The position numbers and the translations under genes are program-made. Below the pieces are notes generated by a model, which was given only the letters and a program-made list of their open reading frames with translations, searched no databases and was not told the origin of the DNA. Below are positions 24,795 to 60,533 of a stretch of DNA of 64,000 nt, piece by piece. Positions within the stretch are counted from its first letter, which is position 1. Every line of letters starts with the position of its first letter. Source of the DNA: Nakazawaea peltata (Eukaryota; Ascomycota; Pichiomycetes; Alaninales; Pachysolenaceae); assembly GCA_001599355.1 (NCBI GenBank), contig BCGQ01000010.1:372001-436000 (forward strand). The letters run 5' to 3'.

Positions 24795-24833
24795 GCAACC
24801 TACGAATATTTGATATGTAGCAAACTACGAATT
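24795..24833 (+). promoter_or_regulatory. Two copies of the AGCANNYTACGAAT motif
   Basis: AGCAACCTACGAAT (24795-24808) and AGCAAACTACGAAT (24820-24833) are direct repeats 25 bp apart, between MTC2 and UTP11. They are relatives of an exact 14-mer found at three other promoters in the window. Confidence 0.6.
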
Positions 24834-24859
24834 TGCTCCCTATATAAAATTTTTTAGGT

Positions 24860-24887
24860 AAAAAAATTTTTTTCTAAGAGCGATGAG
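24860..24887 (+). promoter_or_regulatory. RRPE and PAC elements of UTP11
   Basis: AAAAAAATTTTTTT (24860-24873) followed by GCGATGAG (24880-24887), 55-82 bp before the UTP11 ATG, is the textbook order for yeast ribosome-biogenesis promoters. Confidence 0.8.
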
Positions 24888-24941
24888 ATTTTATATAGAA
24901 GAGACTCAAGAAGAACTCATCGTTAGAATAGCCGTATCAGA

Positions 24942-25712
24942 ATGGTGAAGTTAGTGCATAATATCCAGAAAAAACAGCATAGGGAACGTTCCCAACCAGG
25001 AGATCGTAAGAAATGGGGTCTTCTAGAGAAGAAGAAGGACTACAAGTTGCGTGCTCTGGACTACCACAAGAAGGAACTGCAGTTGAAGATCTTAAAAGAG
25101 AAACTGGCATTGAGAAACCCGGATGAATACTATCATCTGATGGTGAATAAGAAGACAGATGATCGTGGAATTTTGATAGCAGACAGAGGAAATGAAGTAT
25201 TAAGTAACGATGAGGTCCAGTTATTGAAGACACAGGATGCCAACTACATGAACTTGATCAGAACCAAGGAGTTGAAAAAGATCAGTAAAATGCGTGAGAA
25301 TTTGACGTTATCGAGTAAAGGAAAGCATACTGTATTTGTAGAGGATGTTCAAGAGAAGTTGGATTTTGATCCAGTCAAGCATTTTAACACCACTGAAGAG
25401 TTGTTGATGAAGAGAGAAAACAGATTGAAATTGGATCAATTGCTGGACGAATCTGAACTGTCCAGTTCTCGTTCAAAGAGCTCTTCTTATGAGGATGTAA
25501 TGGGTAAATATGATAAGCTGTTATTCGATGCTAAGAAGGTAAAGAAGTTGTCGAACTTGAAGCTGAAATTGGAGAGAGAAGAGAAATTCAAGAACCTTTA
25601 CGATAAGATGAACTTACAAAGAGAGTTGATGAAGAAGGGAGAGAAGAAGAAGACTGTCGATCAGTATAGCGGAAAGACGACATATAAATGGAAAACTGTA
25701 CGTAAGAGATGA
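24942..25712 (+). CDS. UTP11: SSU processome protein Utp11
   Basis: 256 residues. MVKLVHNIQKKQHRERSQPG then RKKWGLLEKKKDYKLRALDYHKKE is the near-invariant Utp11 N-terminus. The protein is very basic and helical throughout. Utp11 belongs to the small-subunit processome and is needed for 18S rRNA processing in the nucleolus. The stop lies 25 bp from that of AIP1 on the other strand. Confidence 0.96.
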   Translation: MVKLVHNIQKKQHRERSQPGDRKKWGLLEKKKDYKLRALDYHKKELQLKILKEKLALRNPDEYYHLMVNKKTDDRGILIADRGNEVLSNDEVQLLKTQDANYMNLIRTKELKKISKMRENLTLSSKGKHTVFVEDVQEKLDFDPVKHFNTTEELLMKRENRLKLDQLLDESELSSSRSKSSSYEDVMGKYDKLLFDAKKVKKLSNLKLKLEREEKFKNLYDKMNLQRELMKKGEKKKTVDQYSGKTTYKWKTVRKR

Positions 25713-25737
25713 ATATCAATAATATATAACGTTTATT

Positions 25738-27540
25738 TCACTCATAAGTCCAAGATTTGATGGTACCATCGTTACCACCACTTACAAATGTAGAAGCATC
25801 GATCCATTTGACACAGTTCACACCATCTTTATGACTGTTGAGGAACTTGACATTCTTTCCAGGGGTTGCAACACTGTATACAATCAAGTTTGTGTCTAAT
25901 GATCCACTTGAGACGTGGTCGTTGTCCAGGTTCCAGCTCAACGAGTTAACTTTCAGGGTGTGGAAGGACCAACGAGATGTTTGTACTGCCAATGTGCCGA
26001 TATTGTATAAAACAATCTTACCCATAACGTCACCAACAGCCACGTATTCTTCATTAGGAGAGATCAGGGCGACATTTGGCTTGGATTGCATCGGGTTGGT
26101 GAAACTCGATTTGATTTCCAAAGACTCGGGGTCTAAAACATGAATCTTGTTGTCTTTGGCAGATCCAACAATAAGATATTTATCAGATAACAGAATCAGC
26201 GAACTTAATTCGAAGTCGAAACTCTTCTCTGATGACTTCTCTCCCTTGGAGAAAGAAATGATCTTATCTTCCGAAGTCACAACAACGGTTGACAGACCAT
26301 TGGAAGACATCAGTTTTGGTTGTGATCCCAACTGACTGGATGAGACAAATTCGGATCCAGAAACTGTCTTTAAAGTATCATCCCACAGGGTAGTGGACAC
26401 GTTACCGTTGTCAGACTCGGTGATGGAAACAATCAAATTGCTATGCTTTAACACAGAACTAGAGGCCTTAATCTCTTTACCGTTACTGATCTTCTCATCC
26501 CATTCAATAATTCTACCGTCATAACTTCCACTGTATACTTTTAAGGAAGAGCTTACGGCAGTCAAGGCAGTAATCGACTTCTGGTGTCCCTCAACAATAT
26601 AAGAAGGAGTTTCAGAGTCTAAAGTAAAGTAATTCAAATTACCGTTCAATGACAATGAAATAATATAGTCCTTAGTAGATACGACACCCAACTGCTGGTT
26701 GTCTACACTCTTTTCTAAAGCCCAACTCTTGACGATTTCACCAGACTCAACATTGAATAACTTAACAGATGCATCTGCTGAACAAGCCACAAATTGCTTT
26801 GGATTGCTAACATCCCAACTAATACCGTAGATACCTCCGGTGAAATCGTTTATAATTTCCTTAATGAATTCACCAGTCTTACCTTCATAAACTACGATCT
26901 TTCTATCAGCACCAACACTTACAATATACTCACCATCTGCAGAGTATGCAACGTCTTTCACAAAATTGGTATGGTGACCTCTAACACTTTGAGAAAACTT
27001 GAATGGAGGACCTTGCATAAAGACCAAACCAGCATCATCCGACACTGTGGCAGCTCTGTATGGTCTATTTGGTTTTATAGTGACGGCATTTATCTGAGCC
27101 GAATGTCCCGAGATCTCTCCCACAGTGTTACCAGAGTCCCATGTGAAACAATGACCCATTCTTTCTTTACCATTACCTACGGCGATGATTCTTTTTGACT
27201 CCAGATCCCAAGCAATATCGTTAATTCTACCACTAATAACAGGGTATTCTCCCTTAACAATCAAGTCCTCTCCAACGCAGTCCCAAATCTTGACGTTTCC
27301 AGACTCATCGGCACTCAGAATATAGAATCCTGAAGGGGCAAACTTGGCCACAGTGGTGTTGGCGTTGTGCTGAACGAACTGAATAGCAGACTCGCTCAGC
27401 TTAGGGTCCGCATTGACCACAAAGACAGACTTACCAGAGCAATACAGCAACTTGTTCGACTTGGCATCATATGATAAATGTACAGGGACCGATCTAGCCG
27501 TAGAGGGCAAAGGGGCTGTGATGGATTCTGGATTCAACAT
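25738..27540 (-). CDS. AIP1: Actin-interacting WD-repeat protein Aip1
   Basis: 600 residues with two seven-blade WD propellers (GHSAQINAVTIKP, GHHTNFVKDVAYSADGEYIVSVGADRK, HKDGVNCVKWIDASTFVSGGNDGTIKSW). The N-terminal LPSTARSVPVHLSYD is typical of Aip1. It works with cofilin to disassemble actin filaments at cortical patches. The window also codes for an alpha-actinin. The upstream side is a 3.9-kb gap with an AGCATATTACGAAT motif about 210 bp before the ATG. Confidence 0.95.
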   Translation of the reverse strand: MLNPESITAPLPSTARSVPVHLSYDAKSNKLLYCSGKSVFVVNADPKLSESAIQFVQHNANTTVAKFAPSGFYILSADESGNVKIWDCVGEDLIVKGEYPVISGRINDIAWDLESKRIIAVGNGKERMGHCFTWDSGNTVGEISGHSAQINAVTIKPNRPYRAATVSDDAGLVFMQGPPFKFSQSVRGHHTNFVKDVAYSADGEYIVSVGADRKIVVYEGKTGEFIKEIINDFTGGIYGISWDVSNPKQFVACSADASVKLFNVESGEIVKSWALEKSVDNQQLGVVSTKDYIISLSLNGNLNYFTLDSETPSYIVEGHQKSITALTAVSSSLKVYSGSYDGRIIEWDEKISNGKEIKASSSVLKHSNLIVSITESDNGNVSTTLWDDTLKTVSGSEFVSSSQLGSQPKLMSSNGLSTVVVTSEDKIISFSKGEKSSEKSFDFELSSLILLSDKYLIVGSAKDNKIHVLDPESLEIKSSFTNPMQSKPNVALISPNEEYVAVGDVMGKIVLYNIGTLAVQTSRWSFHTLKVNSLSWNLDNDHVSSGSLDTNLIVYSVATPGKNVKFLNSHKDGVNCVKWIDASTFVSGGNDGTIKSWTYE

Positions 27541-30500
27541 TGTTAGTAATGGTTTTGAGGGCGTTGATTAGTGCGGTACATACTTCTCTCAATTGGCATT
27601 CTAATTGATGTAAAGTTGACTCTTGATGAGATGACCTCGTACAACTTGTGTTATAGCGCCGTTAGAGGGGCGCGTTGTTATTTTTTCTAAAGAGCATTTT
27701 ATCTGTCATTTTAGGAAGGGTACTATTTACGTGTCAATTAATTTAGATGAGCATATTACGAATCGAGATAAGGAATCTCGGCCAATTTCGCCGACGGCGC
27801 GTCTGCCGAATTTAAGGCGAGAAATTCATTTAGGGGCAGGCATGATGAAATAGAGGTGCGGAGGTGAAATCTGGAGAAGAGTGTGACCTAATTTCATGTG
27901 CAAGATGTCGAAAAACATAAATGGAGTCGATACGAGAAACAGCATGGATTAGTGATGAGAGTGCAAATCAATTTCATCTGTTATAAACGAATAAGACATC
28001 AGCACCTCGGAATTTATTGACATATTCGTCCATCTACAGTTTCTTGTACCGAAATATAGGGCCCATTTTTTTAGCGATGTGAGACAGCATAAGAGTAGAA
28101 CACAATTTTTTAAAAAAATATTCCGCTGGCTTTGATATTGCTTTCGTTTCGGGATTTAAAAGGGTTCCATTCTTCTCTGTAGAAATTTCTTTTTCGTTTT
28201 ATTTCTTTTTCGTTTTGACCTCTTTTTGCGCTGTAAGCGTGTTCTGGAAAGAAAATCATAATCAGAACCTTACTTCGCCTAAGCGGAACTCACACACGGC
28301 GGAAAGAAAATGCGAAGATCAATCAGCGGAACTCTTTTTACTACAATGTAACATGTTACTGAACTTTACTCTTATCGGGTGGGGCCGAGTTGCTATCGGT
28401 GAAGATTATCCAGAGTGCCCCCACAATACTTGCATTGCCTACCCTCGTCATCGTAAACTATGTCAAGCATCGAGGCAGAGCTGAACAGAGTGCCCCCATG
28501 TTTTTCCGCGAAAGACGGCGGCAATTGCAAAATACGACTAATAGTGCAGGTAACCGCCCTCATAAATTGTGATGATGCGTCGCTCGACCCTTCCATAAAC
28601 GCATATTCTCAACCGTACAAAACTACTTGGCATCTTAGCACCGCAACTGGTTCCCTTTTATGGGTTGCTTTTGAACTCAAAATACTAGCGGAAATCAAAA
28701 ACGAGCCTACGGTTGAGTTGAGACAATAAAAACTATAAATCGTTCCGAACTTCAGAATGCTGCAATCCTTACATATAAATCTGCACTCACCTTTTATCGA
28801 AGGAAGTTTAGTGCGTGCGCAACAAATAATGTTTTCCACCGAAAGCAGCTGTGGCCGAGGCCGTTGAAAGCTGATCTCACTCACCAGTTAACAACTTTTT
28901 GTAATGCCCCACGAGGTATGTCGGAACTGTCGGAAGTGCGATCTGATGTGTAGATAAATCAGTGATAGAGCTTAGAATCGATAAGGCATTGATCCGGATT
29001 TGTCCATCCCCCTTGCCGAAACCTAGATAATCTCGAAAAGGGGGTCACACGCACATGACGACCCTATTTCCGGTATGGACTTGGTTATTTGGCCCACGCT
29101 ATTCCTCTAGTCAGCTATTGATGGTCAATTGGGCGGGAACTTCCGTATGGTTACATTGCCAATAATCGCTATACTACTTTGTTAAATGCAATTAGGATGC
29201 TCATCAAAACGCGCCTATAAAAAATGTCACCAAAAAAAAAAATCCGCTCAGGCAGCATGAGACATCACAAAAAAAATTTTCACCAGCTGCTCAGGGATAC
29301 GATGAGCTGTAGTTAGACCAGAAGAGATCAGAGATCGGGAGAAACGGTTCAAGAGGCATTAAACCCTAAAAGATAAGCAAGGGTGGCTGATAGAAATAAA
29401 GTTCAACTGGCATTTTGAGTGGATGGAACTCCTCTCTGCTATGGCGGTTTTCCTTCCTGTACTGCCCTAGTTTGTTTNTTTTTTTTCTCACTTTTGGGCC
29501 ATGAGATGAGCTCTAAAAATAATATTTTACCTTTTTCCTACGGGTTTAAAGGCACACGAAACTCATGCAATACTAATAATTTTATTGTAAACACCTGAAT
29601 AAGGTTTAATTGATCTCCCTCATCGCATGGACTTCAGGCTAGTCCGTCAGAGGAATTATCAGTTCAATCAACAAATCTCTCTTACGAGGAAGTATACATC
29701 TCTAATGAATTTCGCCGTCAGCTCCTTCATGTAATCGTAATCCTACTATCACAAGCCTATTAACGCTATCCCGATATCCGCTATAGCTTGAAATTAGTGA
29801 ATCCTTGGCTATTTTGAAGTCTATACCTTAAAGTAAGTTTATAGTTCAAAACTTTTCCGCCTAATAAGATGGGTGGAGATAATCTGGCAGCGCACAAAAA
29901 AACCTCCGTCACTCTGCCGGCGTAGCGTGTGTCTCGCATTATTTTCCACTGAGCAGCACAAAGTAATACCGAGGGAAAAAAATAGAAAACAAAAACTTTT
30001 CTTTTTTTTTTTGGCATTTGCTATCATCTACAAGGTTACATTAGGATTTGCTAATGTCGCTTCAGGATCTAGTATCCTAGTTAGGGAACTCGAATCACAG
30101 GCGGAAAAGTTATCAATTGAGTTTAAAGATAGTCCCTGAGAGTCGGGTTAATGAATACCTGTGAATTAGCAACCACTTTAGACTTTAAAGATAAGATTCA
30201 AATTTACGAGGACCGTCGCACTTTTGGGAATTGAGTCGAGTGACTCAGCCTTGCACCTTCCGTGAACAAGACCCTTGAAATGACCAAAGAACTGTGAGAT
30301 GAGCTTGGAGAGCATCGCCTAATTACCAGCCGAGGTTTTGCCCAGTTTCCGCCGCCGAGCGGTCGTTACCGATGAGAAGTACAATCACCCTTTGTGCATA
30401 AAAAAATTTTCTATGTTTTCGTCCGGCGCATAAACCCCATAACGGAAGTTTCCTTGACCTAAAAAAAAGAAACGATATTAAGTTCTTTTTGGCTCATAGT

Positions 30501-31423
30501 TTGTGTTGTCTGCTTCTCGTACTTTTATTTTGCCGGGGAATAATCGAGCTTACATGCAGAAACGATCTTGAAGCCTAGAAAGGCTGGGAAATAAAATCCG
30601 ACTTGCACAAGGCAAATTCAACTCACAGGAGAGTTATTAAACCTTACGGAATCACTTACGGTATACGTGTGTGGTACAAGCGATTGCTTTGCCCTCTGAT
30701 TCAAAAGATTGGTTGGCTTAGTAATCCTTTTTCCGAGAGAAAGATGGAGGCGTAGGTGCGTAGGTGCAATTGATCTCTTGGATCTTTGCTTGCTCTAGCT
30801 CTCTTCATTCCTCGGCGCCAATTCCGGGATCCAAACTAACCGTTCTCCCGTGTGAGCTTTACGTAGGGGTAGCTGGAAACCAATTGTACACGCAGGGTAT
30901 TCTGAATTAAGGTTTTTATTTTAGCCCACCGAACAATATCGTATCCTGTAGTTTGCGAGATGTAAAAATTAAGATGGCATTCGCTTGCATGGTGCTCTGC
31001 CTCACTAATATGGTTGTAGGGTGCTTTGTTGCCCACTCAATATGGTGTGTTCTGAAAATTCTGCAATGGAATATGAGAAGAAAAAAGAAATTTAAATACG
31101 AAATTCTAGAAAAGGCGCAGATTGCATGCAGCTTACATATTGCAGATATCCTACGTATGTCATTTCATATAGAAAATTTTTTTCCAGGTGGAAATCTTAT
31201 CAGTTTCAGCTTTGTTGTAGTAATATTTCACTTTTTTCTTTTTACGTAAATAATATTTTCTGTTGCTGTTCCTGGTGGTAGTATATATATCAGATTGATT
31301 CCCTCGGAGGTTTCGAGTTAATGATGATTCGGTCTTCATATATATATAGGCAGCGAAAGACCACAGCCTGTCACTCTCTCTTGCGCACACACACACAACC
31401 ACACACACACATAGTCATTCACT
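27541..31423. promoter_or_regulatory. 3.9-kb gene-free region upstream of an unknown gene
   Basis: This is the largest gap in the window, shared by divergent AIP1 and the gene at 31424. The best open frames are under 100 codons, overlap one another and resemble nothing known. CGGAA/TTCCG occurs about 19 times (near 28122, 28286, 28326, 28923, 28931, 30443 and others), about three times expectation. Other features are a 16-bp tandem repeat TTTCTTTTTCGTTTT at about 28188-28219, an undetermined base (N) in a T-run at 29478, and CA repeats at 31385-31411 next to the downstream ATG. I found no tRNA, no snRNA signature and no transposon ends. Confidence 0.6.
27750..27763 (+). promoter_or_regulatory. 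AGCATATTACGAAT motif (AIP1 side)
   Basis: This is one of three exact copies of this 14-mer in 64 kb. It lies 210-223 bp before the AIP1 ATG. Confidence 0.6.
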
Positions 31424-32359: not shown

Positions 32360-32751
32360 TATGTTTCTTGCATCTCACGCCCCCCTTCTTATTCATGTCA
32401 GCATTATCTACGATCTTTTTTTATTTTTTATTTTTTATGTCTATATATTTAGTCTCAATTCAGATTATTTAATATGCAAATATAGAGTGATGTAGAATAG
32501 AAGGGTAATTGTAATTACATTTTCCCCGCCTAAATTTACGTGCATGTGCAATCTATTTGCTTTTCCGCTTTTTAGTCCGCCTGCATTATTATTTTGTGTT
32601 CCATTTCTTCTCTCGAGCCTGATTTATCAGCCGCACGAGCATTTTACAAATCGAAGCTCATCAGAAAAATTTTCAATTAAGAAAATTTTTTTTCACCTTA
32701 AGTAAAGGGCGGTTAAATAGCTGAAAGCGAGCATTGGTGGATAGATAGAGC
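32360..32751. promoter_or_regulatory. UTP15 promoter with PAC and RRPE
   Basis: CTCATC (32657-32662, reverse PAC core) is followed by GAAAAATTTTC (32664-32674) and GAAAATTTTTTTTC (32681-32694), about 58-95 bp before the UTP15 ATG. The left half is T-rich 3' flank of the preceding gene. Confidence 0.65.
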
Positions 32752-34269
32752 ATGTCGTCCAGTAGACAAAGAGTGAACCAGAGCAGAGGGGCGACCTTAC
32801 CTCTGCAGATGACTCCAGAACAACGTTATTGGCGTGGTTTTGTAAATACCCAATTGGTTAAAGAACATAACGCGGTCACCCACGTCCATTTCAACCCCTT
32901 ACTGCCACATGATTTCGCAGTCACCTCGTCTACAAGAGTACAAGTGTTTTCGTCGAAGACCAGACAAGTAAGCAAGACTTTCTCGAGGTTCAAAGAGATC
33001 GTTTATAGTGGAGAATTCAGAAATGATGGTAAGCTTCTTGTGCTGGGAGACCAAAGTGGATTAGTTCAAATTTTTGATGCCTTGAATCCCAGAACTATCT
33101 TGGTGACATTGACCCCAAGTTCGCATCCTACTCATGTCACAAAGTTCCATCCTACCAATTTGACGAATTTATTAACTCTGAGTGATGACAGAGTAGTTAG
33201 ATTATACGACATTTCGAGACCTCAGGCCCCGATCGCTGCATTCAGCTCACACGATGACTATATCAGAGCTGCCACATTCTTACCAGGGACGAATTTGATT
33301 GCCACTGGTTCTTACGATGGATATGTTAGAATTTTTGACCCAAGAGTAAATACCCCAGATATCAATAGCAATCCTGATCCGATCATGACCTTTAATCAGG
33401 AAGACCCAGTTGAAGATTTATTATCTTTGAACTCCACCAATTTGATCTCATGTGGAGGTCCTACTATCAAAGTATGGGATTTAACAAGTGGTAGAGCTTC
33501 ATATGAGATGTCCAATTTCACAAAGACTGTCACCTGTTTGAGTGATGCTGGTGAACGTGGAATCTTAGCTGGTTCTCTTGATGGTCATGTTAAAGTTTTC
33601 GATTCCACTTCTTCTAATTGGGATGTCAAGTTCGGTTGGAAATTCGGTAGTGGTGTTTTGAGTTGTGGAGTTTCTCCAAATCATAAGCATTTCGTTGCTG
33701 GTTTGACTAGTGGTCTCTTGCTGATTAGAACAAGGAAGACAGAACCAAGGGTTAAACAAGGAGTTCCAACAAAGCAAAGATCAAATGCCTTCAATAAAAT
33801 GATGAGAGGTTCCGAATATCATGGTGAATATGAGCATAGAATTGTTAACGACAAACAAAAGACTTCTCAGACCAAGAAATTAAAACCTTTTGAAAAATCA
33901 TTGAATCTGTTCAGATGGACAGAGCTGTTGGACAACGCTTTCATTCCTGGAATGTCCAAGGAGTTGACCATGACTGTCTTGGAAGAGTTGAAGAAACGTG
34001 GTAAAGTTAGAGTTGCCCTTGCCGATAGAGATGAGACTAAGTTGGAACCATTGTTGACCTGGTGTCTCAAGACAATCGAAGATGTTCGTTGTGTCAATAT
34101 CGTAGCAGATTACATCGGTGTGGTATTGGAAATGTACGGTACCGTTCTTGAGAAGTCTCCTATCATGGAGGAATTGATCGTTGCATTGAAGAAGAAGGTG
34201 GTACAGGAGATCGAGAAGGCCAAGCAGGCTCAACAGATCGAAGGTATGTTGGAATTATTAACTGTGTAA
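32752..34269 (+). CDS. UTP15: SSU processome / t-UTP protein Utp15
   Basis: 505 residues. After a short basic N-terminus come WD40 blades from about 30 to 330 (FNPLLPHDFAVTSSTRVQVF, GDQSGLVQIFDA, TGSYDGYVRIFDPR, AGSLDGHVKVFDS). A UTP15-type C-terminal helical domain follows (about 370-505, FRWTELLDNAFIPGMSKELT). Utp15 is part of the UTPA/t-UTP complex that binds nascent pre-rRNA and supports rDNA transcription. It converges with SLD2, with a 25-bp gap between stops. Confidence 0.95.
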   Translation: MSSSRQRVNQSRGATLPLQMTPEQRYWRGFVNTQLVKEHNAVTHVHFNPLLPHDFAVTSSTRVQVFSSKTRQVSKTFSRFKEIVYSGEFRNDGKLLVLGDQSGLVQIFDALNPRTILVTLTPSSHPTHVTKFHPTNLTNLLTLSDDRVVRLYDISRPQAPIAAFSSHDDYIRAATFLPGTNLIATGSYDGYVRIFDPRVNTPDINSNPDPIMTFNQEDPVEDLLSLNSTNLISCGGPTIKVWDLTSGRASYEMSNFTKTVTCLSDAGERGILAGSLDGHVKVFDSTSSNWDVKFGWKFGSGVLSCGVSPNHKHFVAGLTSGLLLIRTRKTEPRVKQGVPTKQRSNAFNKMMRGSEYHGEYEHRIVNDKQKTSQTKKLKPFEKSLNLFRWTELLDNAFIPGMSKELTMTVLEELKKRGKVRVALADRDETKLEPLLTWCLKTIEDVRCVNIVADYIGVVLEMYGTVLEKSPIMEELIVALKKKVVQEIEKAKQAQQIEGMLELLTV

Positions 34270-34294
34270 ATTTATTCATTAATCATTATCTATA

Positions 34295-38564: not shown

Positions 38565-39455
38565 TCACTGTTGGCTCAAAGCGTCTCTAGCCCAGGTAGG
38601 CAATACGAAAGAGGCTTCATGGATTTCCTTATTGTAGTATCTGAACAACTTCTTCTCGGTTTCGGAATCGAAGGTCTTCAAAGGCTTCTTAACGTTAGCG
38701 TTAGCGTCCTTAGAGCAAACCATGAAACCGATTTGACCAGATGGGTAAGTTGGGATAGTAGTGTAGGCGTACTCGGCGACTGGGAAGACCTCAGAACAAG
38801 CTTTCTTCAAGTCCTTGATGATAGGCAAGTGTAACCAGATGTTCTCCAGTTGGGTGGTGATGACACCCTTTTCGGTCAAAGCATCTCTCAACAATTCAAA
38901 GTATGGCTTTTGGAAAAGAGACTCGGCTGGACCTTCTGGATCAGAAGAGTCGGTGATGATGACATCGAATGTGTTCTTGTAGTCATCCAAGAACTTGAAA
39001 CCATCTCCGATATGGACCTTAACCTTTGGATGTTGGTAAGACAGAGACATCTCTGGCAAGTATTGCTTGGAGACTCTGATGACAGCTTCATCAATGTCAC
39101 ATAAGACGGCCTCTTCGACAGACTCATGCTTGATGACCTCTCTCAAGACACCACCGTCACCTCCTCCAATAACCAAAACCTTCTTTGGGTTAGGATGAGA
39201 ATTGATGGCCAAATGGGTAATCATCTCTTGGTAAGAGAATTCGTCTCTCTCGGTGGCTTGGATTACATTGTCCAAAACCAAAACGTTTCCATAGTCGGAA
39301 GATTCGAATACCAAAACATCTTGGTACAACGACTTCTCATGGTGCAAAATCTTGTTGACTCTCAAAGCCATGGCCTGTCCTGGCCACATGGTGTCGGAAA
39401 TTTCATGGAACCATCCGTCCTTGATGGTTGGGTGTGTCAATTCTTGGGCAGACAT
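38565..39455 (-). CDS. SPE3: Spermidine synthase
   Basis: 296 residues (S. cerevisiae Spe3: 293). Motifs include [16 protein letters not shown], the decarboxylated-SAM site [30 protein letters not shown], and the putrescine-site [18 protein letters not shown]. It transfers the aminopropyl group to putrescine, making spermidine, which is needed for eIF5A hypusination. Codon use is strongly biased, as in a highly expressed gene. The promoter has a PAC-like plus RRPE pair (39525-39543). Confidence 0.97.
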
Positions 39456-47568: not shown

Positions 47569-48474
47569 CTCTTTCTAGGGGACCAAAATATCGATGCTAT
47601 GAAGGGCGCTTCCTGGGAAAATGGAAATTTGGAGATAAATTCAGTCCTGTCTCTTCAATATGATCTTATCAGCTATAGGACAAGTCACAGCTCGATCTTT
47701 ATAAATATTCTAGCCCTGTGTTTGACCTTGGTTTCAGACCTTGACAAGAGGAGGAAAAAGGCTCAGCGCTAAATATGCAAATTATATGCACCTTTTGTAA
47801 CCGTTTTAGGCAAGTGACGCGTGAAATTTTGCTAATACGAAAATAGTACGAGAGGATGGAGAAATAGAGGGGAGCAAAAGAGTGAAAAAGATGGAAAGGG
47901 AAAAATAGAGGAAAATAGGGGTAAAGATTGAAAGGGAAAAATAGGGGGTAAAAGAAGGAGATTTAAAGTTGTCTTGAACAGGGGTGAGATGAATGGTATG
48001 GGGTGGTGATATTAGGGGAGTATGGACTAGGTCAAATTACTTGAAAGCAATGTAGTGGTGGGGATGACTAGTCAAAATATCCGCTAACTGAATGATTGTA
48101 TAACTCTTTCAGTACTATTTAGCATAATCTTTATCAAATAGTGTGTGGAATTCTTAACTACTACGATAAAATTAGAGATATATCGTATATAAATATTTTT
48201 GGAAAGAATTGACCCAATCACTTTATTACTCTGGTCGCCTTATTTTCTTTCTTGTCATCGCCTCACTCTTCATATTCTTACTCTTGAAGTTATCATTCTT
48301 CGTAGTATCTGTAGAACTTGAATGATTACCCCCAATTATAAAGACTCTCCCTAATTGAGAGCAGCATATTACGAATATACTACACACAGCAAAATATCAT
48401 TTTAATATCAAGCTGATGATATTTTTCCACAAGAAGAGGTTCACCAAAAGGACTCCTCAAAAGTTACCTCTGTA
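47569..48474. promoter_or_regulatory. Divergent spacer with MCB box and purine tract
   Basis: This 906-bp gap lies between the alpha-actinin and the gene at 48475. ACGCGT lies at 47817-47822. A purine-rich, G/A-biased tract covers about 47846-47965 and contains GAAAGGGAAAAATAG twice (47894-47908, 47930-47944). No gene is seen. Confidence 0.5.
48363..48376 (+). promoter_or_regulatory. AGCATATTACGAAT motif (upstream of the 48475 gene)
   Basis: Second exact copy of the 14-mer, 99-112 bp before the ATG at 48475. Confidence 0.6.
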
Positions 48475-50271
48475 ATGGCAAAACTTGTGAGGGAGCTGAT
48501 TACTTCCAGTGGTGGAAGTAGTAGTGAAGATGATGAAGATTCATTTGATGACCCTTTAGCCACACTTAGGATGATTTCCGGTAAGAAATATGTCCTGTTA
48601 GATGATTTTCCAACGGTCAAGGCGCCTTCTTCTGAGTCTAAGAGACCAAAGATAGATGATAAAATTATGAGAGAGATAGAAACGATGAAAAAGAGAAGGC
48701 AGGTAGAAGAAATGATGAAAAATGATGATCAAGAAATCGAAGAACATACCAAGAGACAGACAAAATTGGAACTCAAGGTACAACTGGCCCTCAGTTCTAA
48801 AGCTCTAGAGAATAAAAGATATGTTGACCATATCACTAGAATCGCTGCAGAGTTAGAAAATGATGAAGAAGGCGACTTTTTTGGGGTTTATGACTTCTAT
48901 TTGTTCAAATCTGGCCACCACAAAGCCGTCAGACTCCCCAGTGGTTCAAGTTATCATCTGGTATTCTCACACGATGAGTCTGAAATTTTTACAGATTTAA
49001 CGTTGAATGGAATTCAACTGAAAAATTTGGCGATAGGACGAGGTTCCTTAGCATCGAATGTGCTAAATATCACCAACTTAAAATCTTTGGCTGTCGTAGA
49101 TGAGATAATCAAACGTTCTGTTTTCCTGGAAACCACTCCTAATGAAGAAACAGAAAATGAAGAAATGATAGAGAGTGATATTCGTACTTTTATGGGAGGA
49201 ATTGGTGTTGACATGGAATTATTTGAGCAGGCTCTTACTTCCGATATTAACATGTTAAAGAGATTAGATAGAGTAGAAGATATGTACTCGTTTGGGATAC
49301 AATCTCAGAAGCTTTGCATTGGGTTATCATTATATTATGACTCTGCTAGGACTCAGTTACTATCATCTATGAAAAGCCCTGATTTTACGGATATTTCCCC
49401 CAAATTGGAGCAAAAATCCTTCGAAACGAAATTCAAATTTATATTAAGGACTTATTTCTTACTATTATGTGACTCTCGTTTCTACAAGACCAAAGATAAC
49501 TCTCTCTTTCAGTCCCTGACTCCCCACGAGAGACTCTCCCTATTTTTGGATGATTTAATTTGTAGTTATTTTAAGTTACACATGAGTGGGGCGAAGAAGA
49601 CTGAATTGATATTCAAAGAACTCAGTGTCGTATTCAATTCTTGTTTCTTAGATTTAACTGAATCCCGGTTAATATTAGTTCGCCCATTACTATTCTTGAT
49701 GAGAAGTAACTTCTCACCCATCACCAAGTATCTAGTCCAGTGGCTCCTGTTGGAAGTCATAGTACGGCAGACACCACATGAGAAAAGCTTACTCTCACAA
49801 AAAGAGATGGAAAGTCTCTTGAAATATGAGATGCCTCCAAGTAAATCTTTCAACCCTGCAATATTGTCTTTTGTCGAATACATTCGATTGATCAAAGACA
49901 TCGCATTAGAACTGAAATTTAGCACTTATAGAGGTCATGTCTCATTTTACCAAGAAATAAATGCCAGATTTTTGCTCATCCAAGAGTTTATATTGAGCAA
50001 TATTCTGTGTTTGAAGCATTTGGACTTGGTCAATGAAACTATCTACTCAAAATATCGTCATGATATCGTCTCAAAGACCTTCAAAGTCAAACAAGACACT
50101 ATAATTCCTCACATATTGTCGACATACTTGGCCGAACTCAAGTTGAGACATTTCGAGAACTTCGATTACACTCTGAACCCCATTCTCGGTAGCATTATGG
50201 TCTATCTTGGCAACTTGGTATTCCGATTAGACAAAGAACTTGAAATCAAGCTCTTAGATTTAGAATTATAG
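48475..50271 (+). CDS. Unrecognised helical protein, possibly Nse6-like
   Basis: 598 residues. The N-terminal 100 are disordered: an acidic SSSEDDEDSFDD patch, then a charged coiled coil (REIETMKKRRQVEEMMKNDD). From about 110 to the end it is mostly alpha-helical with many Leu/Ile and no transmembrane segments (ILRTYFLLLCDSRFYK, PLLFLMRSNFSPITKYLVQWLLLEV). I do not recognise it. The layout (acidic disordered head, helical-repeat tail) resembles Nse6/Kre29 of the Smc5-Smc6 loader, but this rests on shape only. Confidence 0.72.
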   Translation: MAKLVRELITSSGGSSSEDDEDSFDDPLATLRMISGKKYVLLDDFPTVKAPSSESKRPKIDDKIMREIETMKKRRQVEEMMKNDDQEIEEHTKRQTKLELKVQLALSSKALENKRYVDHITRIAAELENDEEGDFFGVYDFYLFKSGHHKAVRLPSGSSYHLVFSHDESEIFTDLTLNGIQLKNLAIGRGSLASNVLNITNLKSLAVVDEIIKRSVFLETTPNEETENEEMIESDIRTFMGGIGVDMELFEQALTSDINMLKRLDRVEDMYSFGIQSQKLCIGLSLYYDSARTQLLSSMKSPDFTDISPKLEQKSFETKFKFILRTYFLLLCDSRFYKTKDNSLFQSLTPHERLSLFLDDLICSYFKLHMSGAKKTELIFKELSVVFNSCFLDLTESRLILVRPLLFLMRSNFSPITKYLVQWLLLEVIVRQTPHEKSLLSQKEMESLLKYEMPPSKSFNPAILSFVEYIRLIKDIALELKFSTYRGHVSFYQEINARFLLIQEFILSNILCLKHLDLVNETIYSKYRHDIVSKTFKVKQDTIIPHILSTYLAELKLRHFENFDYTLNPILGSIMVYLGNLVFRLDKELEIKLLDLEL

Positions 50272-50315
50272 GTGGTGTCCCGATGTTTCTCTTTTAGGAC
50301 ATTTGTTGACAATAG

Positions 50316-50333: not shown

Positions 50334-50415
50334 AAAATATATAGAGGAGCGTCGTATAGAAAATGTATATAGATGAAGAGTAAGAGGAGTATATTGAGAG
50401 AGCTTGTAGAGGGTG

Positions 50416-51249: not shown

Positions 51250-51300
51250 ATATACCGAGACCTATCACATTATTTACGCCCGTGAAAGCACAGGTCAAAT

Positions 51301-51558: not shown

Positions 51559-51992
51559 TTCAATAAAATGCTTTCCTAAGTCCACAAATAGCGCAAGAAA
51601 ACCCCCCCCTGTCCTAATTCCCGATTAGGCAATTTCCCCAATATGAGGAACAAGATCGGGGATCCAAAGGTTTATACAGGGGGAGCATATGAAGATATTA
51701 GGAGAACGATACCCGTACCTATGTTGAAATCTCCATTGTTCTCACCAAATCTTTTCAAGATATTCTCCGTTCTCCTCCATGTGACACAGCCATCCATGTA
51801 CTCTTCATATCTTAGACTCGCTCTCGTTTAGATCCGAGGGGATCGATGCCCGCAGTCGGGTTTAATGAGTCAGCGTGCCCTGTCTTTTTTTTAGTGCCGA
51901 CAAAAACGGCAGAAGAGATATAAGTGAGCGCGGCTATATAAAAGGGGAGCAGTTTGGCATACAGAAGAAGGAGAGAAGGGCATACAAGCAAG
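51559..51992. promoter_or_regulatory. Divergent promoter with TATA box for the acyltransferase gene
   Basis: The 434-bp spacer has TATATAAAA at 51935-51943, 50 bp before the downstream ATG, and TTCCCGATTAGGCAA with a CCN6GG core at about 51621-51635. A 62-codon ATG frame here (51643-51831) lacks recognisable features. Confidence 0.5.
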
Positions 51993-53489: not shown

Positions 53490-53557
53490 TACATCTCAAT
53501 GATAGAAATTTAATATTTAATTTTATAATAATTTAATACAATGGCCCTTTGGTCATC

Positions 53558-54451: not shown

Positions 54452-54550
54452 CTTTAATATTGTAAAAACTCTGAATATCAATCCTTGGTACCCTTAAATA
54501 TGGACAAAAGAGTCATAAATCAAAACGTGAGTTACTTGCAGTGAAAATAC

Positions 54551-54677
54551 CTTAAAATGGAATAACAATAAGAATACCTAATTAGGAAGTTAATACGGCT
54601 TAGATAAACGTGAACCGTCGGATAAAGAATTACTTAAAACGGAATACTAATTAGACTACCCAATGAGGAAATTATTC
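54551..54677. repeat. Diverged 82-bp tandem duplication with CCN6GG boxes
   Basis: The segment starting CTTAAAATGGAATA at 54551 recurs as CTTAAAACGGAATA at 54633, with about three quarters identity over 45 bp. Each copy has a CCN6GG box: TACCTAATTAGGAA (54575-54588) and TACCCAATGAGGAA (54657-54670). The first box is nearly palindromic. It lies between the nucleotidase start and the DUG1 stop. Confidence 0.65.
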
Positions 54678-54692
54678 ATAAATAGATAAGGT

Positions 54693-56216
54693 TTATTTAG
54701 ACTCAGCATAGAAGTGTAAGTAAGAAGACAAAGTCTTGACACCTTCGATGTAGTTCTTGGTGTTTAACTTCTCATTGATAGAGTGAGCACCGTCATCACC
54801 CATACCCATTGGTAATAACAAGACACTAGTCTTCAAGGCCTCTTCGAAAGTCAAAGTGATTGGAATCGAACCACCTTCTCTAGTCAAATCTGGCTCTACA
54901 CCCCAGACCAATTGAGTGGCTTTCTTAGCAGCGGTGAAGTTCTCGTTGAATGGATCAGAAACCCAGTAAGCTCCATCGTGGATCAATTCAGCTTTACAGG
55001 TGTTAGGAGATCCCAATTTGGCAAACTCCAGATCACAGAAATCAGTGACAAGCTTGTTCAATTTGTCACTGTCCATATCAGGAACGGTTCTGATAGAGAA
55101 TTTACCGACAACCTTAGCTGGGATAACAGTCTTGGCTCCTCCACCGGAGAAAGCACCTTCAATACCGTGGAGAGACAAGGATGGGAATCTCCATCTGTGC
55201 ATTAAGATATCTTTCTTATCTTGGTAAAGAGCAGTGTTGGAACCACTGGCCAGGTTCAATTCTTCAACACTGAAGTCGATGCTCTTGTAAATCTCAGCCT
55301 CCTTCTCAGTGACAGGGGCAACCATCTCGTTAACACCTGGAATAAGAATGTTACCGTTACAGTCTACCAATTTGGACATAACTTGAATCAAGTCAGTCAT
55401 AGGCTCATGAATGATACCACCGAAAACACCAGAGTGCAAATCAGCACCTGGACCAGAAATGGTGAGCTGGTAGTAGTTACAACCTCTCAAACCGTAGGTC
55501 AAGACTGGCTTGGTAGTACCGAGCCAGTAGTTATCAGAAATACAGACGGCATCGACACCCTTGAAGTATTTGTCAGCCTCCAGCTTAATCAACTCATCCA
55601 ATCCCAAAGATCCAGACTCCTCCATACCTTCGAAACACATAACTAAGTTGACTGGGAACTCCATCTTCAAATTGTTATGAGCCTCAATAGAGTTCAACCA
55701 GCCCATTACAGGACCCTTATCATCGGTGGAACCTCTTCCGTACAATTTGTCACCAACCTCAACCAAAGTGAATGGGTCAGTCTTCCATCCGTCTTCCTTC
55801 AAAGCTGGTTGGACATCGTAGTGACCGTAGACACAGACAGTCTTCTTTGATGGATCATTACCGAAACGGGCAAGAATGACAGGAGGCAACTTCAAGTTAG
55901 GGTCGCTAACTGGAGGTGGTTGGATACCCAAATCCTTCTTTTGGATGTCATAAGCACCCAACAGTGTCAATTCAGAGACAAGGAACTCTCCCATCTCAAA
56001 AACCTTAGGTCTCAATGATTCATCTCCCGAAACAGATGCGATGGAGACGGCCTTAGACAATCTCTCGATGAATTTTGGTTTCAAGGAGTCAATTTCCTTG
56101 AACAAAGGCTTCAATGTTTCTTCTACAGACATTTTCAGGTTGTGAGTCGATATTAGTCTTCTGGGTATTATCAGATTTCTCACCAATCCAACTTTCAAAC
56201 ACCTCAAATAGTTCAT
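54693..56216 (-). CDS. DUG1: Cys-Gly metallodipeptidase Dug1 (M20 family)
   Basis: 507 residues from the first ATG; Met29 begins MSVEETLKPLF, the usual Dug1 start (about 480 residues). M20 motifs: GHYDVQP (131-137), GRGSTDDKGP (161-170), FEGMEESGS (195-203), and GPGADLHSGVFGG, the dimer-domain His loop. Dug1 uses two zinc or manganese ions to split Cys-Gly in glutathione breakdown. The extra 28 residues (MNYLRCLKVGLVRNLIIPRRLISTHNLK) have six Arg/Lys and no acid, so they could direct some enzyme to mitochondria. Confidence 0.94.
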   Translation of the reverse strand: MNYLRCLKVGLVRNLIIPRRLISTHNLKMSVEETLKPLFKEIDSLKPKFIERLSKAVSIASVSGDESLRPKVFEMGEFLVSELTLLGAYDIQKKDLGIQPPPVSDPNLKLPPVILARFGNDPSKKTVCVYGHYDVQPALKEDGWKTDPFTLVEVGDKLYGRGSTDDKGPVMGWLNSIEAHNNLKMEFPVNLVMCFEGMEESGSLGLDELIKLEADKYFKGVDAVCISDNYWLGTTKPVLTYGLRGCNYYQLTISGPGADLHSGVFGGIIHEPMTDLIQVMSKLVDCNGNILIPGVNEMVAPVTEKEAEIYKSIDFSVEELNLASGSNTALYQDKKDILMHRWRFPSLSLHGIEGAFSGGGAKTVIPAKVVGKFSIRTVPDMDSDKLNKLVTDFCDLEFAKLGSPNTCKAELIHDGAYWVSDPFNENFTAAKKATQLVWGVEPDLTREGGSIPITLTFEEALKTSVLLLPMGMGDDGAHSINEKLNTKNYIEGVKTLSSYLHFYAESK

Positions 56217-56631
56217 AAATCAATTTAATAATTGCAGGAACGGCGGTTGGGATTTTTTCTTAGCTTTAGGCGGGCGGTATTTGGGTGAGGAAGAGAAGGG
56301 GAAAATTTCCGAGAGTGTTTTGGGTGGGGATTTTTTTGGTTTGGGTAGAGCCGTCCGCCTAAACGGGCGGAGGGCATCGGTGTATTTGGTAAGGCAATAC
56401 AAGAGGACTGCAAGAAGGTGCATATGACAGTGGAGGAGATGAGCTTTTTGGAATACAGAGGAGTTATCATTGGGTTTGAGAATCGACTGGTATAACAAGC
56501 TATTGGGACTCAAATGATCAAGTGTGAAGGTGGAATTCGTTAGTCAATAGAACATTCGTATAAATCAACATAGACCTACAGTTTTCATTTCACAGTATAA
56601 CACCTCAATTCAGCCTTTACTCTCACCGGAT
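56217..56631. other. Spacer: DUG1 promoter and tRNA 5' flank
   Basis: The 415-bp gap has inverted GCGGGCGG/CCGCCTAAACGGGCGG patches at about 56268-56371. There are no features beyond open frames lacking ATG. Confidence 0.5.
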
Positions 56632-56728
56632 GATGTGGTGGCTCAATGGTAGAGCTTTCGACTCCAATTGTTGAAAAGTTTTCTGCAGTGTCATCGAAGG
56701 GTTGCAGGTTCAATTCCTGTCCATGTCA
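56632..56728 (+). tRNA. tRNA-Trp (CCA) with 25-nt intron
   Basis: The acceptor GATGTGG (56632-56638) pairs with CCATGTC (56721-56727) through two G-U pairs. D-arm: GCTCAATGGTAGAGC. Anticodon arm: TTCGA, CTCCAA, intron, A, TCGAA, with anticodon CCA at 56664-56666. T-arm: GCAGG TTCAATT CCTGT. The intron is 56668-56692 (25 nt), directly after position 37, the canonical site. The mature body is 72 nt and nearly identical to S. cerevisiae tRNA-Trp. A T-run from about 56734 to 56750 ends Pol III transcription. Confidence 0.97.
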
Positions 56729-56733
56729 ATACT

Positions 56734-56758
56734 GGTTTTATTTTTTTTTAATTTTTTT
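56734..56758 (+). terminator. Pol III T-run after tRNA-Trp
   Basis: A TTTTATTTTTTTTTAATTTTTTT stretch begins 6 nt after the tRNA discriminator base. Confidence 0.8.
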
Positions 56759-56843
56759 CTTGCGCTTTCCCTCAAAGGGGGTGATTTCTAATAAGAAGAA
56801 AGGAAATAGACTGAGATATTGATAACAGAGTAGTACTTTGGAA

Positions 56844-59321
56844 ATGAGCAATTCGAGCAATAGTCGGTTTCTTGAATTTTTGGAGACATCACAGAATGGT
56901 TCGGCACATAGCGCCCTAGGTTTGACTGTGAGATCCTTCATCCTTTCCATAAGCATATCACTGGGCATCAGCGCTTCAGAAATTATAATAGTGGCTCTTC
57001 TTAGAAATCACCTAAAGAATTTGTATCAACCAAGGACGGTGCAAAATTCAGTACTAGACGAAGAGAAAAAGGGAAGATTCCAGTTCTTTGCTTGGTTACT
57101 ACCTTCTCTTAAACTTTCAGATACCAATGAGTTCATGCATTCCGGTTTGGACGCTTATTTCTTCTTAAGATTTATGGATACTCTATTGAGATTCTTTGCA
57201 GTTCTTGCTGTTTTAAACAATTTGGTATTACTTCCTGTCAATCTCTCAGGTAGCTCTCAAGTGTTTTTGAGAAGAAGCTTTTTTGACACAATATCTATTG
57301 CTAATATCGAACCAGATAAAGCCAATCGATATATATGGCATTTTTTTATGAGCTTGATTACTGTTGGTTTGTTTCATTATGTTTTAATCAAGGAATTGAA
57401 AAACTACTCTTTGATAAGGAAGAATTATGTTCATGAGAATAGTCTGAATAATGTTGTTATGATTGACAATTTACCGAGAGAACTTCAGGATTATCTGGTA
57501 ATACATAAATTCTTCAATGTACTACCTGGAGGTATAAGAGAGCTTTGGTTCACGTATGACACAGAGGAGCTTCAGCATGATATATCACAGTTTGAAAAAT
57601 CAAGAAATGGGTTAGAGAGGGAGTTGTCTAGATATATAAAGAGGCAGTCCAATATTCTTAGACGTCTGGAGCAAAAGAATGAGAGAACTCTGATAGTGAG
57701 AAGCAAATTCAAGAGACCACGGCTCGCACTTCTGTTTGGGAAGCTTCCAGTTAGCCTTTCATTTCTAGGATGGGGGTCTGACTCTATAGAATATTACACA
57801 AAGCAGTTGTTAGAAAATTATGATAGAGCAGTATCATTGAAGGAAAAGCTTCTGATAGAACAGAAACCTTCAATTGCCAAAGTTTTTATTGCTTTCAATT
57901 ATCCTTCAAGTGCTCATATTATCAACCAAATAACACTATTTGAGAAGTACAACAAGATGAACAAAACGGAAATAAACTTGAACCCTGGAGATATAATATG
58001 GCCGAATTTATTGAGAGAAGATACATTGATATCTCGAACCAAAGGGATCCTGGCCAGGTGCCTCGCAATATTCATTACATTGTTCTGGGTAATTCCTGTT
58101 TCAATAGTAGGTATAGTTACCCAGTTACCCTATTTGATTAGACTAATACCTATCTTAGGAGGGTTAAGAAACCTTCCGCCTTTTTTGAAAGGTATAATAG
58201 GAAGTGTTCTTCCAACCTTGGTGTTAGCAGGTTTAATGGAAATTGTACTCTGGATTTTTGGAGAGATATCTGTTCTCAAAGGCAAAGTAACCGGATATAA
58301 ATGTCAGATTGATCTTCAAAATTGGTTATTCATGTTTCTATTCACACAAATGTTTTTGATAGTTACTATCTCTTCTGGTGTGACAGTTTTAACAGAGAAT
58401 TTGCTCAACAATCCAGTTTCAATCCCTACTCTCTTAGCAATGGATCTACCTAAAGCTTCAAATTTCTTTCTCTACTTCTTGTTGATGAGATGCATGATTT
58501 ATATGGCCAACACTATGATCCAACCAAGGGCTCTATTCTTCACAATCTGGAACCATATGTTCACCGTTGAGACTCCAAGAAGTAGACATAAGCTGGTACT
58601 GAGGAATACAAAAGTGTTTTGGGGATGCATCTATCCCACATTCACTGTGTTTGGGTGTATAGGTATAGTGTATTCAGTACTTTCACCTTTGATTCTATTC
58701 ATTGCATGGCTTTCATTTTACTTTGCTGCAGTGGGATTTAAGAATAACTTGATACATGTCTACAATGCCACAAATGAGAGTGAGACCAATGGGAAGTTCT
58801 ACCCAACAGCCCTTTTACAATTATACAGTGGAATTTACTGTCTTGAGTTAGCACTACTTGGGATCTTAATACTTCAGCGCCGTCATTTTTTGCTGTTTCT
58901 AACGCTAACAGTCTTTCTGGGCACAATATTTGTTAATAATTATGTGAGAACTAATTATTTAAAACATTCAATGGCATTTATCAGGGATTCGGATGTAATC
59001 GAATGTCGGAGACTTTTGAATTTGGAGGAGACAGAAACAGAAAAAGATGAGTGGAAGAGCTATTTATTGTCTAAGTTGAACTTTATGATACCTAGTATAC
59101 CTCCAGACTCTTGTTCAAGCCACTGTCCTCAAACATCAATGTCTTCTAAAGATTCATCAATAAGCAAGATGGGACCTTCATTTTTCCCACAACTTCCTTC
59201 TTGTTCTGTGGTAATACCCAAAGATAAGTATGGAGTTGCAGAACAAGAGGCTGAAGTTTTGAAGAGCGTCGGGATTTCTGTAACATTTGACGAGAGCAAC
59301 GGAATAATTGATATTTCTTAG
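56844..59321 (+). CDS. CSC1/OSCA/TMEM63-family membrane protein
   Basis: The first ATG (MSNSSNSRFLEF) gives 825 residues. Three hydrophobic segments (about 28-52, 100-130, 160-185) precede the cytosolic RRM-like region with NNVVMIDNLPRELQD and AKVFIAFNYPSSAHIINQI. A long block of about eight helices follows from about 385 (DIIWPNLLREDTLISRTKGI, GSVLPTLVLAGLMEIVLWIF, WLFMFLFTQMFLIVTISSG). This is the DUF221/RSN1_7TM layout of mechanosensitive or hyperosmotic-gated channels (Csc1, Rsn1, Phm7, Spo75). I cannot choose the paralogue. An 11-base G-run begins at the stop codon. Confidence 0.88.
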   Translation: MSNSSNSRFLEFLETSQNGSAHSALGLTVRSFILSISISLGISASEIIIVALLRNHLKNLYQPRTVQNSVLDEEKKGRFQFFAWLLPSLKLSDTNEFMHSGLDAYFFLRFMDTLLRFFAVLAVLNNLVLLPVNLSGSSQVFLRRSFFDTISIANIEPDKANRYIWHFFMSLITVGLFHYVLIKELKNYSLIRKNYVHENSLNNVVMIDNLPRELQDYLVIHKFFNVLPGGIRELWFTYDTEELQHDISQFEKSRNGLERELSRYIKRQSNILRRLEQKNERTLIVRSKFKRPRLALLFGKLPVSLSFLGWGSDSIEYYTKQLLENYDRAVSLKEKLLIEQKPSIAKVFIAFNYPSSAHIINQITLFEKYNKMNKTEINLNPGDIIWPNLLREDTLISRTKGILARCLAIFITLFWVIPVSIVGIVTQLPYLIRLIPILGGLRNLPPFLKGIIGSVLPTLVLAGLMEIVLWIFGEISVLKGKVTGYKCQIDLQNWLFMFLFTQMFLIVTISSGVTVLTENLLNNPVSIPTLLAMDLPKASNFFLYFLLMRCMIYMANTMIQPRALFFTIWNHMFTVETPRSRHKLVLRNTKVFWGCIYPTFTVFGCIGIVYSVLSPLILFIAWLSFYFAAVGFKNNLIHVYNATNESETNGKFYPTALLQLYSGIYCLELALLGILILQRRHFLLFLTLTVFLGTIFVNNYVRTNYLKHSMAFIRDSDVIECRRLLNLEETETEKDEWKSYLLSKLNFMIPSIPPDSCSSHCPQTSMSSKDSSISKMGPSFFPQLPSCSVVIPKDKYGVAEQEAEVLKSVGISVTFDESNGIIDIS

Positions 59322-59443
59322 GGGGGGGGGGAATGTAAATGAAAATGAAAATGTGAGCCAAAATTGGGGGTGTTAAAAGCGCCAACACAAAAGCCTTAAA
59401 AAGATCACGGCGCTTATCATTTAATAAGATCCCAGGTGAATTT

Positions 59444-60475
59444 ATGTACTCTGTCTGCAAGTATCTTATAGTTGCAATTGTAGTAGGTAGGTCGGCAGCG
59501 GATAATTGTAATCCGTTGTTCAGCAATGAATGTCCCACGATGAAAGCCCTCTCACTGACACTAAAAGAGGAATTCAGAACGGGATCGGATTATTTCGAGA
59601 GTTATTCAACTCCAGAAAAGATTAGATATGGTGAAAATGGATTAGAATTGGTGATAGATGAAAGAGAGCAAAACCCAGGCATCAAATCAAAATTCTATAT
59701 AATGTTTGGAAGGGTAGAAGCGATTGTGAGAGCGGCGCGAGGCAGAGGAATCGTGTCCTCATTATATTTACAATCAAATTCTTTAGACGAAATTGATGTG
59801 GAATGGTTTGGCGGTGATCCATATGAGGTACAGACCAACTTCTTCGTTAAGGGAAATGTTACCTCTTATGATAGAGGAGGATATCATCCTGTCAAAGAGC
59901 CCCAAAATGAGTTTCATAATTATACAGTTGATTGGACAAAAGACCGATTGAGTTGGTATGTCGATGGTGTTCTAATTAGAACATTAAAAAGTAATTCACC
60001 AGATGGATATCCCCAAACTCCAATGCAAGTTTTTATGGGAACTTGGGTTGGTGGTGATCCTTCTAACAGTTGGGGTACGATATCATGGGCAGGTGGGCTC
60101 ACTGACTATAAAGGATTACCATATACAATGGCAGTCAAACAATTAATAATCACTGACTACTCTTCTGGTTCGTCCTATTATCATACCAACAAAAATGGAG
60201 ACTGGGATTCTATAAAAGCTGTGAATGGAGTCATTAATGGCAGACAAGGCGCTGCCATGGCCGAAGTTACAAATGAAGAAAGAGCAGCTCAGTCACTTTC
60301 ACGAAGAAATTTCTCAAACAAAGAAGATCTCAAAAATTCAGTTTCAACTAAAACCAATTCAGCATCACATCTCGAAACCAATCTCCTCATTCTCATACTG
60401 TGCACCCTCATCTCTATCCTCTCTGTCTTCCCCGTCCTCCCATCCTCCCGGTCCTCGCTCCCCTCCACCCCCTAA
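59444..60475 (+). CDS. CRH-family chitin-glucan transglycosylase (GH16)
   Basis: 343 residues with an N-terminal signal peptide (about 1-19), then CNPLFSNECP. The GH16 catalytic motif is LDEIDVEWFGGD (Glu116, Asp118, Glu120). Other family segments are QTNFFVKGNVTSYDRGG, HNYTVDWTKDRLSWYVDG, MGTWVGGDPSNSWGTISWAGG and TDYSSGSSYYHTN. Crh1/Utr2/Crr1 link chitin to beta-glucan. The protein lacks the chitin-binding module of Utr2 and Crr1. It ends in a Ser/Thr linker and a hydrophobic segment (LLILILCTLISILSVF), as for a GPI signal. About 15 polar residues follow (VLPSSRSSLPSTP), which is unusual for GPI anchoring. Confidence 0.9.
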   Translation: MYSVCKYLIVAIVVGRSAADNCNPLFSNECPTMKALSLTLKEEFRTGSDYFESYSTPEKIRYGENGLELVIDEREQNPGIKSKFYIMFGRVEAIVRAARGRGIVSSLYLQSNSLDEIDVEWFGGDPYEVQTNFFVKGNVTSYDRGGYHPVKEPQNEFHNYTVDWTKDRLSWYVDGVLIRTLKSNSPDGYPQTPMQVFMGTWVGGDPSNSWGTISWAGGLTDYKGLPYTMAVKQLIITDYSSGSSYYHTNKNGDWDSIKAVNGVINGRQGAAMAEVTNEERAAQSLSRRNFSNKEDLKNSVSTKTNSASHLETNLLILILCTLISILSVFPVLPSSRSSLPSTP

Positions 60476-60492
60476 CCCCCTTGTGATCCCTT

Positions 60493-60533
60493 AGCATATT
60501 ACGAATTTAAATATTATTTCCCTTTTAGGAAAC
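60493..60533 (+). promoter_or_regulatory. AGCATATTACGAAT motif plus Mcm1-type box upstream of MMM1
   Basis: The exact 14-mer lies at 60493-60506. ATTTCCCTTTTAGGAAAC (60516-60533), with CCN6GG, follows 9 bp later. Both lie 84-124 bp before the MMM1 ATG. Confidence 0.6.

Follow-up and report, generated by a model that had tools for sequence, protein, structure and literature searches.

A long promoter motif, putatively the site of a general regulatory factor, recurs in head-to-tail groups in an apparent CUG-Ala yeast

The motif TKAGCANWYTACGAATW, about 17 bp long, recurs throughout the genome examined here; most of the copies whose surroundings were read stand in front of genes, which look functionally mixed, and neighboring copies stand predominantly head to tail. 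Judging from its sequence and distribution, it is probably the site of one sequence-specific DNA-binding protein that would act in the manner of a general regulatory factor.

The window, by which we mean the whole 64,000-nucleotide stretch analyzed (C10:372001-436000), belongs to a genome of 11.63 Mb in 11 contigs. An earlier note on this DNA had reported an exact 14-mer, AGCATATTACGAAT, at three positions about 100 to 225 bp from a start codon, a near match at 14091, and two variants in tandem at 24795 and 24820. The three exact copies are present, all on the + strand and at distances within that range, as is the near match; the tandem variants exist as well, with starts one base off, at 24794 and 24819. 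The sites and the genes next to them are as follows.

5376..5392, - strand: TGAGCAAATTATGATTT, a weaker 17-mer (matrix score, 18.4), 92 bp upstream of ORF 5485-6399 (+)
12286..12299, - strand: AGCAATTTACGAAG, one mismatch (matrix score, 18.3), 133 bp upstream of ORF 11507-12151 (-)
14091..14104, + strand: AGCAAATTACGATG, the near match (matrix score, 16.9), 201 bp upstream of a SIR2-family gene (12511-13887, -)
23817-24728, - strand: ORF without a Pfam match, on the other flank of the tandem pair from UTP11
24794..24807, + strand: AGCAACCTACGAAT, first of the head-to-tail pair, with UTP11 (24942-25712, +) to one side
24819..24832, + strand: AGCAAACTACGAAT, second of the pair, at a spacing of 25 bp
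27750..27763, + strand: AGCATATTACGAAT, exact, 209 bp upstream of a WD40-repeat ORF (25738-27540, -) that we take to be AIP1
32638..32651, + strand: AGCATTTTACAAAT, a weaker match (matrix score, 15.6), 100 bp upstream of ORF 32752-34269 (+)
48363..48376, + strand: AGCATATTACGAAT, exact, 98 bp upstream of ORF 48475-50271, which has no Pfam match
60493..60506, + strand: AGCATATTACGAAT, exact, 110 bp upstream of the MMM1 gene (60617-61753)

Five window sites fit the exact pattern AGCANNYTACGAAT. With at most one mismatch allowed, the pattern has seven matches in the window, while 100 dinucleotide shuffles gave a mean of 0.51 and a maximum of 3. Counts for the whole genome, each set against the reversed pattern, are 38 and 0 for the exact 14-mer, 239 and 1 for AGCANNYTACGAAT, and 521 and 32 for the looser AGCANWYTACNAA, the last an excess of 489. 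Because the core AGCANNNNACGA is unchanged when read backwards, all 60 aligned sites still carry it on reversal, although the full pattern then fits none of them; real sites therefore add to the reversed counts for core patterns, which makes these controls conservative. A long motif in hundreds of copies, far above what composition yields, is what characterizes a general-factor site, and the excess of AGCANWYTACNAA together with matrix matches suggests a genome total of roughly 500 to 600 sites.

The stretches read contain 60 exact-pattern copies, 5 from the window and 55 from stretches fetched because of a site, and we aligned them all. Of the 42 columns that the pattern does not fix, four are constrained (chi-square p from 1.2e-5 to 3e-8): column -2 favors T, column -1 avoids A (3 of 60 sites), column 5 is A or T in 59 of 60, and column 14 avoids G (1 of 60). 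Beyond these columns the flanks are random, with mean pairwise identities of 0.265 and 0.270 against an expected 0.262; the earlier note had named a repeat remnant with shared flanks as the contrary case, and since the flanks are unrelated, the motif is not such a remnant. The constrained columns and random flanks fit a single putative protein site of about 17 bp, and the motif should accordingly be widened from the 14-mer to TKAGCANWYTACGAATW.

A position matrix at a threshold of at least 16 bits finds 18 intergenic matches and 1 coding match in a 264-kb sample, against 1 and 0 when the sequence is reversed; these counts are in-sample, since refinement of the matrix drew on this sample and on the site loci. 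The unrefined first matrix, built from exact-pattern sites only, gives 11 and 1 against 1 and 0. The sample consists of the window, itself chosen by the finding, and 20 stretches of 10 kb (L010 to L029) at coordinates of our choosing, with L010 picked for its 5S gene. The window accounts for 8 of the 18 intergenic matches and the remaining 200 kb for 10; in those 200 kb, exact-pattern sites number 0 against about 4 expected from the genome rate; the window is richer in exact-pattern sites than the genome average. As to the 5S gene itself, the only one reported by the search lies at C3:944699-944819 (in L009 and L010), and no other rRNA exceeds the Rfam cutoff within C3:936000-946319.

Most of the sites examined lie in front of genes. 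Among all listed exact-pattern sites in the first 2.35 Mb of contig C1, 48 of 51 fall outside ORFs of at least 100 amino acids and 3 inside, although such ORFs cover 198,211 of the 264,000 sampled bases (binomial p of about 1e-25); this is the promoter-versus-coding count that the earlier note had proposed, and it came out in favor of promoters. Site groups scoring at least 16 bits number 71, of which 6 lie in ORFs, 22 are unclassifiable because a neighboring gene lies beyond the end of the stretch, and 43 are classified, 28 between tandem genes and 15 between divergent genes. None of the 43 lies between convergent genes, though 30 of 116 sampled spacers are convergent (p = 0.0017 by bases). 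The median distance from site group to ATG is 106.5 bp (n = 42). At tandem-gene promoters, the placement evidence is evenly split by orientation, with 13 groups running with the gene and 14 against it. We rejected an RNA-level element in the 5' UTR because the motif can point either with its gene or against it. Near sites, poly(dA:dT) runs are less frequent (36 of 89) than at random intergenic points (1,106 of 2,000), a comparison on which we do not lean, as the background includes 3' regions and the sites are not independent.

Two further features of this DNA were observed in passing. Of the 29 site stretches scanned (L030 to L058), 3 have a tRNA gene no more than about 200 bp from a motif site, at L037:1033-1105, L046:859-930, and L051:870-943, a tally that may be an undercount, as the tRNA at 56632-56728 of the window was found by Rfam and missed by ARAGORN. 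The window also contains a 3.9-kb stretch, 27541-31423, with no ORF of at least 100 amino acids and no Rfam match; its only inverted repeat is weak (30 nucleotides, 77%), a small tandem repeat is present at 28185, and a long non-coding gene and the centromere of the contig are both possibilities.

The genes adjoining sites are functionally mixed, as judged by reading 50 Pfam-scanned ORFs, several of which have no match. They include UTP11, MMM1, CSE1, MRS2, DCP1, ALAD/HEM2, histidyl-tRNA synthetase, hexokinase, a proteasomal ATPase, a subunit of the APC, an ATP-grasp enzyme that we take to be ADE2, RFC4, a RAD51 family member, a REV1-like IMS/BRCT protein, an AP endonuclease, an MCM protein, and a UvrD helicase. 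Placement, copy number, and, less formally, this diversity of targets support the earlier reading of the motif as a general regulatory factor site. Separately, two known elements of ribosome biogenesis genes are enriched in intergenic DNA of the 264-kb sample, PAC (GCGATGAG; 11 against 0 reversed) and RRPE (AAAATTTT; 43 against 9), and both stand in front of UTP11 (window 24845-24887); given this enrichment and position, these elements seem to have been kept in the clade.

Neighboring sites follow a rule of orientation. In the stretches read, 38 neighboring pairs lie less than 200 bp apart and 33 of them are on the same strand, with 2 pairs in the reversed control. A genome-wide search with the core AGCANNYTAC at spacings of 13 to 43 found 75 head-to-tail pairs (4 in the reversed control), 2 convergent pairs (control, 1), and 4 divergent pairs (control, 0), the last a slight undercount because A was required for R in one half; palindromic convergent and divergent matches fall on both strands and were each counted once, in the controls likewise. 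At spacings of 44 to 74, the same core gives 40 head-to-tail rows against 2. The tandem pair at 24794 and 24819 is one instance of this genome-wide rule.

Removing 12 outer pairs of triples from the 40 rows leaves 28 and a total of 103 adjacent tandem spacings. These prefer values near 24, 35, and 55 bp: 21 lie at 23 to 25 bp, 13 at 53 to 56 bp, and 4 beyond 57, with none at 27 to 28 or 50 to 52 bp. Their periodogram has R = 0.29 near 10.5 to 10.8 bp (Rayleigh p of about 2e-4), a value reached by 4 of 2,000 jittered sets in the band from 9.5 to 11.5 and by 8 of 2,000 in the band from 7 to 16. The score at 6.15 bp slightly exceeds that at 10.8 (0.300 against 0.291), and helical phasing of the tandem sites is therefore supported, neither unique nor proven. 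We also considered whether isolated TACGAA half-sites might offer a second mode of binding and rejected this, as full sites show no enrichment of half-sites around them: 77 strong sites have 40 extra TACGAA within 150 bp, 7 of which score below 10 bits, where about 13 are expected in that roughly 23 kb at 0.58 per kb. A scan for partner 6-mers near sites returned mostly fragments of the motif itself.

The recurrence of the motif is a solid observation, and from its arrangement we infer polar, cooperative binding on one face of the helix that would open promoters. The putative protein would occupy each copy of the motif; adjacent molecules, aligned on one helix face with fixed polarity, would bind cooperatively, and the bound factor may hold the promoter open or bound the promoter nucleosomes.

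CTG codons were compared with solved proteins of Saccharomyces cerevisiae or Kluyveromyces lactis over the ungapped blocks of six proteins; the MMM1 and UBA3-like alignments were omitted as gapped or distant. The six proteins are encoded as follows.

38565-39455, 1658-3448, and 54693-56216 of the window, all on the - strand
L035:1-645, - strand
L005:1671-3014, + strand
L060:905-1600, + strand

CTG aligns with alanine in 16 of 29 columns and with leucine in 1, while the control codon TTG aligns with leucine in 83 of 106. A first, smaller look at four CTG columns had given no alanine and one leucine. The nuclear code thus appears to read CUG as alanine, as in a CUG-Ala yeast, in which case standard-code translations are wrong at CTG. 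An assignment to the order Phaffomycetales, which complex I and protein identity had suggested, is overturned by this comparison. CUG-Ala yeasts make up the order Alaninales, with the family Pachysolenaceae and the genus Pachysolen.

Sites of known factors were scanned by their consensus in intergenic DNA of the 264-kb sample, each against its reversed pattern. There is no enrichment of Abf1 RTCRYNNNNNACG (2 against 10 reversed; 28 against 35 overall), Reb1 TTACCCG (6 against 10; 13 against 23 overall), Cbf1 TCACGTG (2 against 5), or the Tbf1 site (6 against 9). Rap1 ACACCCATACAT has no match in the 264 kb (0 against 0 intergenic); the Ume6 and RPN4 sites stand at 0 against 0 each, the Hsf1 site at 1 against 0, and the SRE at 6 against 11. 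The Abf1 variant TCAYNNNNNACGA has 3 against 2 intergenic matches and 15 against 8 overall. An Mcm1-like pattern, CCNNATTNGG, is over-represented in the sample both in intergenic DNA (27 against 7) and in ORFs (26 against 8), for a total of 53 against 15.

Several known sites resemble the present motif in part. Abf1 sites of Saccharomyces, RTCRYNNNNNACG, are long and bipartite with an ACG(A) half and occur in housekeeping promoters; the present motif is likewise long and bipartite with such a half, and its targets may also be housekeeping genes, but it differs in its left half or its spacing, and head-to-tail arrays are not known to be a feature of Abf1. Rap1 sites in ribosomal protein promoters form tandem pairs in one orientation. 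The present groups are likewise paired in the same orientation, but their sequence differs, and they precede mixed genes in both orientations relative to the gene. The site of fission yeast Sap1, TARGCAGNTNYAACGMG, likewise combines a GCA half with an ACG half, the difference being a spacer two bases longer; a search of openly licensed papers for the consensus string together with Sap1 found none. Reb1, whose Candida albicans orthologue Nsi1 uses TTACCCGG according to PMC7565893, has the general-factor role that is putative for the present motif and a different site sequence (TTACCCG). No description of the motif was found in the openly licensed papers searched; in two of them the string TTACGAAT is part of primers (PMC2905393 and PMC8224235).

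A possible, though tentative, account is that CUG-Ala yeasts have a lineage-specific general regulatory factor with no kinship to Abf1, Reb1, or Rap1, and that it assembles head to tail on one face, so that the polarity and helical spacing of the copies, not gene orientation, would be the code. The sites could instead be those of a real factor whose same-orientation rule is an effect of their birth by short local tandem duplication, with no need of polar protein contact. Such duplication yields head-to-tail copies only, flanks compared across 20 tandem pairs show a slightly higher identity than flanks of unrelated sites (0.325 against 0.271, sd 0.087), and C7:40257-40344 looks like a copied block; yet the highest flank identity among the 20 pairs is 0.54, and the spacings are uneven, with peaks at 23 to 25, about 35, and 53 to 56. 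We regard duplication as the whole source of the rule as rather unlikely, though it could explain part of the same-strand bias. An ordinary pathway-specific regulator would account for the replication and repair genes among the targets (the RAD51 family, RFC4, the REV1-like protein, the AP endonuclease, the MCM protein, and the UvrD helicase), but ALAD/HEM2, histidyl-tRNA synthetase, MMM1, DCP1, hexokinase, the proteasomal ATPase, the ATP-grasp enzyme, MRS2, UTP11, and the APC subunit are unrelated to these, which makes it improbable that the site belongs to such a regulator.

Conceivably, the protein is a diverged orthologue of Abf1 that has retained the ACGA half and changed the other (TCRY), as KAGCANWYTACGA resembles the consensus TCRYNNNNNACGA when the two are aligned on ACG. 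The excess of TCAYNNNNNACGA over its reverse points the same way, except that 12 of its 15 matches lie in ORFs, and the low intergenic count of RTCRYNNNNNACG speaks against it. The Abf1 protein family (BAF1_ABF1, PF04684) has no match at an E value of 0.001 or even 10, in a search that read CTG as leucine and lacked a positive control, no control genome giving a match either. The accessible text of PMC2897762, on nucleosome mapping in 12 yeasts, dates the origin of Abf1 to the ancestor shared by pre- and post-WGD species and describes turnover of general factors between clades, with lineage-specific examples such as CACGAC for C. albicans and new motifs for Yarrowia lipolytica; in that text no CUG-Ala yeast is named and the present motif does not appear. 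This dating and the clade-wise replacement of factors make a different factor plausible here, and we consider a diverged Abf1 quite improbable. Least credible of all is a dispersed repeat remnant, a replication-origin element, or a 3'-end element: near-identical copies are many, but their flanks are no more alike than random sequence and none of the classified groups sits between convergent genes.

In yeasts, the chromatin of promoters is set by general regulatory factors, and PMC2897762 reports that one clade may have replaced those of another. If confirmed, the putative factor described here would represent a further such replacement, in a CUG-Ala yeast, and would point to a new candidate protein. 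The spaced head-to-tail groups would offer a direct test case for cooperative binding with fixed polarity.
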